A program made the translations under genes and the position numbers. From NCBI RefSeq assembly GCF_001625215.2, contig NC_030381.2, positions 54,051,214 to 54,115,213 of the forward strand: DNA of 64,000 nt. Reading direction: 5' to 3'. Source of the stretch: Daucus carota subsp. sativus. Lineage: Eukaryota > Streptophyta > Magnoliopsida > Apiales > Apiaceae. Shown here one piece after another: positions 43,699 to 47,293 of the stretch. Under the pieces are notes generated by a model that worked only from the letters and a program-made list of their open reading frames with translations, was not told the DNA's origin and made no database searches. The first letter of the stretch is position 1. Every line of letters starts with the position of its first letter.

Positions 43699-43998
43699 TA
43701 TATCCCTATTACAAGAGGGGGACGTACGCATACCATACACTTGTAACACTTATAAAGAGTTAAAGGAGTAAGGAGATTTATTTAGAAAACCCACGGTTTA
43801 GCGCGTGATAAAAACAAAATATACACACATATATGTGTAAATACATGTATATAATCTATCACCCAATTCTATCATCCACTTTTTTGAAATAGTTCTAGGC
43901 CAATCTCGTCCAGATTAAAAAATTCTCTGATCTAGTCTGTATTTACACATATATGTGTAAATACATGTATATCCCTATTACAAGAGGGGGACGTACGC
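43699..43998. repeat. 269-bp tandem unit: copy 1 and the start of copy 2
   Basis: Copy 1 is 43699-43967. Copy 2 starts at 43968 with the same 31 bases (TATATCCCTATTACAAGAGG...). It is then interrupted at 43999 by the Mutator-like element and resumes at 47294. 43722-43937 and 47286-47502 differ at only a few positions. Both contain the phrase CCCACGGTTTAGCGCGTGAT. Confidence 0.85.
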
Positions 43999-44105
43999 GA
44001 AGCCTTTTCCTGATTGCCCATGTTTTCATTCCCATTTCCCAATCTACCCACATTCGTTGCTTTCTTCCCAAACTACCCAACTTTTACCTTTTCCAAAATA
44101 AACAA
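43999..44105 (+). repeat. Left terminal inverted repeat of the MULE
   Basis: C-rich repeated phrases (TTGCCCA, TTTCCCA, CTACCCA, ACTACCCA) align with the inverse complement of 47180-47284 over about 100 bases, with interspersed mismatches. Confidence 0.8.
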
Positions 44106-44414
44106 GACTTGATATGGACCCCACCAGATTATTATGCAGCAAAAGGACAAGAAATCACATGCACCCCTCATGTACATTTTGCATATATATATCACTTAGG
44201 TTTCATGTTTTTTATTAAATTGACCCTACGGTTTCTTAATTAATCATTGTCAATTATAATTAAAATTAATTGAACATATCAACAAAAAAACAAACATCTA
44301 ATATTAAATTTAACAATTCTAAAATATTTTATCAAAGAAGTTTAAAATAAAATTAAACTTGATAATTAAAATACAACAAAATAATATTTTTAAAACAACA
44401 TAATATTTTTAAAA

Positions 44415-46572
44415 CTAATGTCCGTGATGTGGACATCGGCGACTCCGTCTTGTATGACCTTCTTGACCGCATCTCCCACAAGTTTTAACTCTTTGAGAAT
44501 TATCCATTTCCGTTCGAATACGTTGACTTTGTCCTCTTTGTCCACGTTTCTTCCTCTTCTTCCTCAGATTTTCGTCAGCAATAAGGGTACCATACATCTC
44601 CCAATTGTATGCTAGTGGAAACGTCCAATAAGCTTGATTGGGTAGTGGATAAAATTCGTACTTCCACATTTCATACAATATTGTTAGATTGTGATAACCT
44701 TCGATGTATTGCTTCCAATCGAGATTACATACTAAACACGCAGCAACTATATGTGAACATGGAGAGTGATGCCGACTCCATTTTCCACAAGAACAGAAAC
44801 CTTGAAACAAATTTAGTGTGTGTTTGTTTCCTCCTTTCCAAAATCCATTTGTTGTTCGATAACGTGCAGTAATAACCTCAAAGACCCCTCTTTGCTCATT
44901 ATATGGAATAACCTTGTGGGCTGAAGCCTTCTCTTTTATTTTCTCAAACAGCTCTCTCGATTTTTTACAATATGTATGTCCATCCGGAAGGTCACTCAAT
45001 GTTTGAGTGCGCCTTTCTGCAACCAACTTGACAGAACGATAATAGATATACTCAATCATAGATGTGACTGGGAGAAAACGAGCTGACCTTAAGAGTCCAT
45101 TGAAACTTTCAATCATATTTGTAGTCGCCTGACCATACCGATATCCTCCATCGTGAGACATAGTCCACATCTCCAACGTAATCTTTCGTAACCACTTCTC
45201 AGCATCAGGATTAAGCTCTTTTATCTTGTCCATAGCTGCTTCAAATTTTCTCAATTGAGAAGTATTTCCAGCCAACCAACATAACATCTTCAAATGAGAA
45301 CCAGGAAAATGTGAACTAAAATTGCTACGAACATGCAAAAGGCAAAATCGATGTAAACCCATATCGCCGGTGAATCCACTTTGTTCCATTTTCATTGCTT
45401 CGATAATTCCAGCGTGACGGTCTGAAATTATACATATACCTTTTCTATTTTGACACACATATATTCGAAGGTGGTATAAGAACCATGACCAATTTATTGT
45501 CATTTCTTCATTAACTAAAGCATAAGCAAGTGGGTACTGTTGATTATTTGAATCAAAACCCATAGCAATCAACAACTTTCCATTGTATCTTCCTTTCAGA
45601 AACGTACCATCAATGCTTATAACTGGTCGAGCATGTTGCCACCCATCTATCATTGGTTTAAATGCCCACCACACACGCTTACACACAGATGTGTTATGAT
45701 TTATAGGATCAGCTTCAATTAATGTAACCGTACCTGGATTATAATGCATCAAAGCACTAAAAAATCTAGGAAGTTTGGAATAAGAAGTTGTCCAATCTCC
45801 ATACACATCTGATATTGCCTTTTGCTTTCCAATCCATGCCTTCTTGTAACTAACATGATATTGGTACATAGATGTGATTTGATTCATGATATTATGCACT
45901 TTTAAGTATGGACTCTCCGTGATCTAAAATAAAAGAATAATGAGATAATAAGTAGCAATTCAAAATATATGTTAAATGATTATGAAAGAACTGAACTTTT
46001 GTTCTTACTTGTTGTTTTATAACACTAGCGATTAAGCTCGAGCTGAGTTTCTTATGATCCCGTTGAAGTGTTCTCAAAAGACAAGTATGTTCGGCAGGCA
46101 GTTTTGTTATTTCAAAATAACCACTCGACTTTCGTTTTATAACTCGAATTCTCCATGGACATTCGTCTACGATACATTTCGCCTCAAATCTTGTTGTATC
46201 GCTCTTGGAAACACGATAATTTCTAGAATCTCTTATATGACTCGTTTGTATTGCATTTATGGCAGTTTGCTTATCTACAAAACATTGGCCAACAAACAAG
46301 TCATCAGTAAGAGGGTTTAAGTTAGAAGGAGCACCTGAACTATTGCTAAACTTGTTAGAAGTGGCTTCTTCTGTGAACCATGGTGCAGTAGGAACATATT
46401 CTTCATCATCTTCATCATTATCACTATTTGTCGACTCAGAATCACCACCATCATCAGTGTCATCCCCATCTGTTCCAATTTCTGAATCATGTAAAGGACT
46501 AAATTCATCGTCTCTACTCAAATTATAGATAAGATTCGATCTCATTATATCATCATCGATAGAATTCTCCAT
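44415..46572 (-). CDS. MuDR-family (MULE) transposase
   Basis: Transposase of the surrounding Mutator-like element. Exons (minus): 46572-46009 and 45923-44415, joined in phase 0 across an 85-bp GT-AG intron; 690 residues. The N-terminal part is acidic (DGDDTDDGGDSESTNSDNDE). It is followed by a zinc-type DNA-binding domain with C-x4-C and H-x-C (CIVDEC ... EHTC). The catalytic DDE triad is visible: D293 in SIDGTF, D356 in ISDRH, E460 in NMIESFNG. A SWIM zinc finger (C565, C567, C577, H579) follows, then a basic run KKRKKRG and a C-terminal zinc knuckle CGRCGQEGHT. ATG 46572 directly follows an acceptor-like TTTTTTGCAG, so a leader intron is likely. All hallmarks are present and no stop interrupts the frame, so it may still be functional. 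Confidence 0.92.
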
Positions 46573-47179
46573 CTGCAAAAAATAGTAAGATTATTAGTAT
46601 AGCATACTAAAATACATGAACTAAAAAAATGCAAAGAAAAAAAAACCTGATTAGCTTGATATATATCAGCACATATTGCAAGGTATATATAGCCATCCGA
46701 AAATTTAGATCCAAAATTTAGCAATTGGACAAGACATAAAGTATGAATAGTTGAGTTGATATAAAGCCAAACAGTTGAAATGACAATTCTACATTTAAAT
46801 TTGAGTAGACAATACACTTTAAATTTGAGTAGACAAAAGCCTTTAAAGTTAAGCATTATTTTTCAAAAAGCTAGATATTGTGCAGTATATATTATTTTGT
46901 AAATAGTTGATTTGATAACTCATAAAAAGTATCAAAATTATATAATGTATTAGATTATATATAATGACATATTGTTATTATTTATTAAATATTTTTTAAT
47001 ATATAATTTTTAGTTATTTTTAATGTATAAATATGTTAAAAATGAATTTAAATTTGATGAAAGTAGATACGTAAGTTATATGAAATTTGGGTGGCTTGTT
47101 TGCAATTTATGCATGTAGGTGTATAAGATAAAATTACCTGTGCATTGATTTAAGAGCATGTGGGCCAGGCTTTTTGTTT

Positions 47180-47284
47180 TTTTCATGGCTGAAGTATAAA
47201 AGGTGGGTATTTAGGGAAAGATTGAATGAAAGTGGGTAGTGTGGGAAAAATGAATGAGAGGTTGGGCAATTTGGGAATGGATTC
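47180..47284 (-). repeat. Right terminal inverted repeat of the MULE
   Basis: Inverse partner of 43999-44105. Read outward-in on the minus strand it begins GAATCCATTCCCAAATTGCC and continues with TTTCCCA and CTACCCACTTTC. Confidence 0.8.
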
Positions 47285-47293
47285 GACGTACGC

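Follow-up and report, generated by a model that had tools for sequence, protein, structure and literature searches.

A possibly autonomous Mutator-like element with an exact 9-bp target duplication and a local empty site in the carrot genome

Plant Mutator-like elements (MULEs) of the MuDR type encode a transposase with an N-terminal DBD_Tnp_Mut domain, a MULE catalytic domain, a SWIM finger and a C-terminal CCHC-like motif, and are bounded by inverted ends and target site duplications (TSDs) of 9-10 bp; in maize, mudrB is the second gene of an element of this type. The definition of MULEs in PMC6446971 includes a TSD of 8-11 bp, and terminal inverted repeats (TIRs) are stated there to be present in most MULEs and absent in some. 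Plant MULEs of the Jittery/FAR1 type, as tabulated in that source, combine a SWIM or CCHC motif with a single gene. For carrot, Mutator-like MITEs are described in PMC8227079.

The element described here lies in a 64,000-nucleotide stretch of carrot DNA (the window) and shares with the MuDR type the domains, inverted ends and TSD listed above, its domain content pointing to that type. It differs from MuDR-type elements in that its left and right ends are 74% identical over the first 100 nt (gaps excluded) and not near-identical. A mudrB-like second gene is not apparent among the open reading frames, none of which, besides the transposase, exceeds 105 aa while lying wholly inside the element. 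A single gene and a SWIM or CCHC motif are also features of Jittery/FAR1-type MULEs but, unlike those, the predicted transposase has no FAR1 domain at E <= 0.1 in Pfam and carries the MuDR DNA-binding domain instead. The carrot MITEs belong to the same superfamily and host, and the element has 623-bp derivatives of MITE size, but only two full-length copies of this form were found. We found no description of the element among the literature matches listed for carrot Mutator-like elements, several of which concern carrot Stowaway MITEs, or in the available part of PMC8227079.

Element ends and transposase gene

We identified a 3286-bp element recognizable as a MULE by its TIRs, its TSD, an empty site and copies elsewhere in the genome. 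It is, with a probability of about 0.9, a structurally complete DNA transposon of the Mutator superfamily with a local empty site. Its parts are the following.

43990..43998, plus strand: left TSD, GACGTACGC, exact and the same as the right TSD
43999..47284, minus strand (that of the transposase gene): the MULE, 3286 bp
43999..44105, plus strand: left TIR, 107 nt, by strict alignment
44415..45923, minus strand: transposase exon 2, 502 codons and a stop, with the MULE catalytic domain, SWIM finger and C-terminal zinc-knuckle-like motif (reading frame, Pfam, alignment)
45924..46008, minus strand: predicted GT-AG intron, 85 bp
46009..46572, minus strand: transposase exon 1, 188 codons, with the MuDR-type DNA-binding domain DBD_Tnp_Mut (reading frame, Pfam)
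47174..47284, minus strand: right TIR, 111 nt, by strict alignment
47285..47293, plus strand: right TSD, GACGTACGC, exact and the same as the left TSD

Strict scoring aligns the first 107 nt of the element with the reverse complement of its last 111 nt (score 60). A lenient alignment, the one compared with shuffled sequence, reaches approximately 290 nt with a score of 58, whereas 500 shuffles of the right 300 nt scored 17.7 on average and 30 at most. The 9-mer GACGTACGC occurs three times in the window versus 0.02 expected, and three occurrences were reached in none of 100 shuffles. An earlier note on this DNA had described TIRs of about 100 bp and an exact 9-bp duplication, and both are borne out; the duplication falls within the 8-11-bp range and the 107/111-nt ends supply the inverted repeats by which MULEs are recognized.

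The two exons are predicted to encode a transposase of 690 aa with zero internal stops. Pfam matches to MULE (PF10551, E=2.3e-16), DBD_Tnp_Mut (PF03108, E=2.1e-13) and SWIM (E 7.5e-7) reached their cut-offs, and Transposase_mut just did so (1.2e-4; 21.6 bits, cut-off 21). When exon 2 from the window was aligned with five relatives from the same genome, the residues that we take, from knowledge of the superfamily, to form the DDE triad (D293/D356/E460 in the whole protein, whose numbers are the exon-2 numbers plus 188; exon-2 D105, D168, E272), the C-X2-H motif (exon-2 C194, H197) and the SWIM finger (exon-2 C377, C379, C389, H391) were invariant in all six sequences. The same holds for the presumed knuckle, C-X2-C-X4-H-X6-C (exon-2 C482, C485, H490, C497), and its X6 spacing before the last cysteine is probably a trait of the group and not a lesion, because all six sequences have it. 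The zinc knuckle claimed earlier is thus upheld at the level of residues but not by Pfam, in which zf-CCHC_6 scored 16.2 bits, under its 22-bit cut-off. A sequence search against solved structures returned four weak and uninformative matches, the best being a pentatricopeptide repeat protein (E 0.0012, 24 residues).

At the position of the intron, GT-AG is kept in six of nine aligned copies; of the other three, L009 has GT-AT, L013 shows no intron in the alignment and L014 has lost the region. An apparently intronless relative (L062) was considered as proof of splicing and dropped, as its long open frame keeps an in-frame stretch of intron length at this place. Taken together, the Pfam matches and invariant residues identify a MULE-type DDE transposase, and its frame runs uninterrupted between conserved ends, in agreement with the two-exon, 690-residue protein with DDE triad, SWIM finger and no visible lesion that had been proposed. 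The parts needed for autonomy are present in the sequence, which looks competent for it, and the original reading of a possibly autonomous Mutator-like element is supported; we grade autonomy as possible.

Empty site and duplicated flank

The third GACGTACGC in the window, overlooked in the earlier note, lies just upstream of the element in a second copy of its flanks. Empty sites were among the checks proposed in that note.

43698..43936, plus strand: upstream flank copy with no element inside: the target preceded by 23 bp of left flank, then right-flank homology
43721..43729, plus strand: third GACGTACGC, present once in the upstream tandem unit, where it marks the local empty site
43938..43965, plus strand: perfect 28-bp palindrome joining both flank copies, resembling 43820-43852
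47285..47507, plus strand: right flank 3' of the element, with 43721-43943 as its counterpart (identical at 215 of 223 positions)

In the upstream unit, left flank and right flank are separated only by one GACGTACGC, with the element missing. Positions 43698-43729 and 43967-43998, which cover left flank and target, are identical at 32 of 32 positions, and 43721-43936 differs from the right flank at 5 of 216; the right-flank homology seems to end there, and extension to 43943 brings the count to 8 of 223. The two units of the tandem duplication are 269 bp apart, the upstream one being empty, and the palindrome, which looks like a template-switch filler, is followed by GTATAT leading into the second left flank. 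When a 316-bp right-flank piece was searched against the genome, it matched itself, the 216-bp upstream copy and two short stretches, one of 37 bp and one of 28 bp, of which the second is local too.

The simplest order of events would be a tandem duplication first and insertion of the element into the second unit later. According to general knowledge of the superfamily, from which the reaction steps are taken, the transposase would have made a 9-bp staggered cut in one unit, gap filling would have produced the target duplication, and the other unit would have kept the empty site. The right-flank copies show approximately 1.2% change per copy versus 0.67% private change in the element, figures that lean to duplication before insertion but are based on counts too small to decide. 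Alternatively, flank duplication and empty site might have arisen after insertion, either when a break at the left end underwent template-switching repair or through precise excision from a duplicated copy. The palindromic filler with its resemblance to nearby sequence and the position of the junction next to the element would fit such an origin, which we consider unlikely, as an older duplication and a simple insertion take fewer steps and the divergence figures, small as the counts are, lean the other way. It is similarly improbable that the element itself made the tandem empty site, in an aborted excision at its left end repaired by copying of an empty allele with two template switches and the palindromic filler was left behind. 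We retain insertion into one unit of an existing duplication as the preferred reading.

Farther left of the element, a sequence of about 122 bp (43500-43622) has at least 58 other genome pieces at 75-85% identity, often clustered by two or more (40 of 129 candidates scored), and appears to be an interspersed repeat. A 95-bp tandem repeat of 1.9 copies occupies 43170-43350.

Genome copies and deletion derivatives

The search for other copies suggested at the outset covered 441,086,747 bases in 11 contigs (nine large ones summing to 440,708,879 and two of 250,368 and 127,500). At least 82 pieces matching the element DNA were detected, spread over all nine large contigs; there were 84 candidates, 40 of which were scored, and 20 places were then fetched. 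Four near copies were identified, on C3 (3008 bp), C2 (1852 bp), C1 and C7 (623 bp each), with aligned pieces 96-99% identical to the window element. These values come from blastn and separately aligned pieces, as mafft of whole near copies misaligned the 623-bp copies and gave 18-20% apparent difference. Each of the four carries its own exact 9-10-bp TSD. More broadly, exact TSDs of 9-10 bp at different sites were found in seven of eight copies, a count that includes the window copy and comes from 15 listed loci, an end being unset for seven; the eighth (L010) has one mismatch in 10.

All four near copies are internally deleted. The C3 copy (L011) has coding deletions of 237 and 17 bp and a stop, with an imperfect 13-bp overlap at the junction of the larger deletion, and the C2 copy (L014) has a deletion of about 1.43 kb with a 2-bp insertion at the junction. 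Both 623-bp copies share the same two deletions and thus lack the transposase; the junction overlaps are 7 bp long, identical at one junction and matching at six of seven positions at the other. Because the near copies are deletion derivatives with their own exact TSDs, the family has transposed. The two 623-bp copies, which show 7 differences in 623 positions, have the same deletions, no transposase and different targets and TSDs, so this form was itself mobilised in trans. A dedicated genome search (32 candidates, 32 scored) revealed no full-length 623-bp copies beyond these two. Presumably, the encoded MuDR-type transposase acts by binding to both ends and mobilises the element together with its internally deleted relatives, and interrupted repair of the donor gap would account for the internal deletions; the window copy or a sister may have moved the derivatives. 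For the window copy, we infer both splicing and catalytic activity.

Such copies bear on the possibility that the locus is a host gene domesticated from a MULE transposase and flanked by remnant ends, comparable to FAR1/FRS and MUSTANG, which are examples of domesticated MULE-derived genes. The uninterrupted coding sequence and a low dN/dS (see below) would be compatible with domestication, which had been linked in the earlier note to a lack of other copies and to conservation of the locus as a single-copy gene across related species; the former is contradicted by the copies found. A domesticated gene would be expected to have neither TIRs, TSD nor mobile copies, but here the inverted ends are conserved across copies, the TSD is exact and accompanied by a paralogous empty site, and the near copies are moved deletion derivatives with TSDs of their own; in addition, the selection signal is common to relatives with TIRs and TSDs, so a host function is unneeded to account for it. 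We therefore regard domestication as very improbable.

The contrast of diverged TIRs with an intact gene had been raised as a puzzle. The divergence is real, as left and right ends are 68-74% alike (mean 71.7, 25 comparisons) among the five near copies, the window copy included, but the puzzle dissolves in that the left ends of these copies are 95-100% alike over 100 nt (mean 96.8) and the right ends 95-98% (mean 96.5). Decay of the TIRs in the window copy can be ruled out, the left-right divergence being alike in all five. Because all five have the asymmetry and transposed with it, it was inherited from their common ancestor and is no sign of a dying element. In more distant relatives, the two ends of the same copy are 73% (L009), 82% (L010) and 91% (L020) identical.

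Nine relatives were checked for lesions in the transposase gene: L009-L014, with DNA identities of about 85% or more, and three at about 75%. All six of the former are broken. Stops, frameshifts or sizeable insertions or deletions interrupt L009, L010, L011, L012 and L013, whereas L014, the alignment of which is meaningless over its deleted part, has lost exon 1 together with part of exon 2. Of the three at about 75%, L024 and L026 carry both stops and frameshifts. The third, L025 (the L039 place, region C6:25796521-25798011), is 76% identical in exon-2 amino acids and, before the terminal stop, has stops only in the presumed intron; lesion calls in the N-terminal coding part of these three are less sure, as the alignment there holds several compensating indels. 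With inverted arms of 104 nt that are 95% alike, L025/L039 may represent a second MULE subfamily, possibly autonomous. Among the examined copies at about 85% or more, the window copy alone is uninterrupted, but the wider group has another apparently intact gene.

Selection, age and other sequences of the window

Pairwise dN/dS values, calculated by NG86 with our own script and with L014 left out, were 0.12-0.30 in seven of eight comparisons, three of these seven having saturated dS (above 1). The eighth, against the 3008-bp copy, was 0.67 on 17 changes and is uninformative on selection since the burst. These ratios indicate purifying selection along the transposase lineage and describe that lineage more than the window copy, because several partners are broken copies.

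In 1797 shared sites, the window copy has 12 private substitutions, the 3008-bp copy 7 and the 1852-bp copy 16. Across 605 sites in the five near copies, the only shared split unites both 623-bp copies (4 sites), so the relationship looks star-like, as after a burst. Because of its 12 private substitutions in 1797 sites, the window copy is no brand-new insertion; at about 7e-9 substitutions per site and year, its age would be roughly one million years, and the element appears to have moved fairly recently in evolution.

The same figures suit a further possibility, compatible with the main reading, in which the window copy is intact but inactive, through silencing or a hidden amino-acid defect, and another element, since lost or outside the examined set, moved the derivatives. 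The private substitutions would be consistent with this, and the star-like pattern leaves the window sequence not established as the parent. On the other hand, the window gene is free of stops, frameshifts and changes in catalytic residues, whereas all six other checked copies at about 85% or more carry lesions and both 623-bp copies lack the transposase. We put an inactive window copy at somewhat less than an even chance, and continue to treat the element as a complete and possibly autonomous transposon.

A separate family of 7.6-kb MULEs (L047 on C2, L049 on C3, L048 and others) has an exon 2 about 53% identical to that of the window, with an interruption between its two coding parts at the same place as in the window gene. 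Three of its places match at all 4503 of 4503 bp, and a further five are 99.7-99.9% identical over that length; two of these places are identical over the entire element length of 7564 bp, with different 8-9-bp TSDs, AATCTTTT(A) and CCGATTGC(A). Its ends (L069-L074) are inverted repeats of about 430 bp, nearly identical. Compared with the window element, this family has longer, nearly identical TIRs, a length of 7564 bp and several copies at 99.7-100%, and would be the stronger candidate for current or very recent activity.

In the window itself, a 707-codon frame (stop to stop) at 19413-21536 on the minus strand, about 22 kb from the mobile MULE, has FAR1, MULE and SWIM domains and looks like a domesticated FAR1-related gene. 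Two pieces on the minus strand (12730-13194 and 16160-16624) match the MraW methylase family, one at 6.6e-34 and one under the cut-off, and are perhaps exons of one gene. A tRNA gene was identified by Rfam at 62326-62406 on the plus strand (59.8 bits).

The element is ordinary in kind and well preserved, its features being standard for the superfamily. It shows that left and right ends that differ strongly can pass through several transpositions instead of marking decay. As an intact MULE with an adjoining empty site and four deletion derivatives, it offers a compact system in which to test MULE mobility in carrot, and it would be a candidate marker for mapping Mutator-like insertions in this species.
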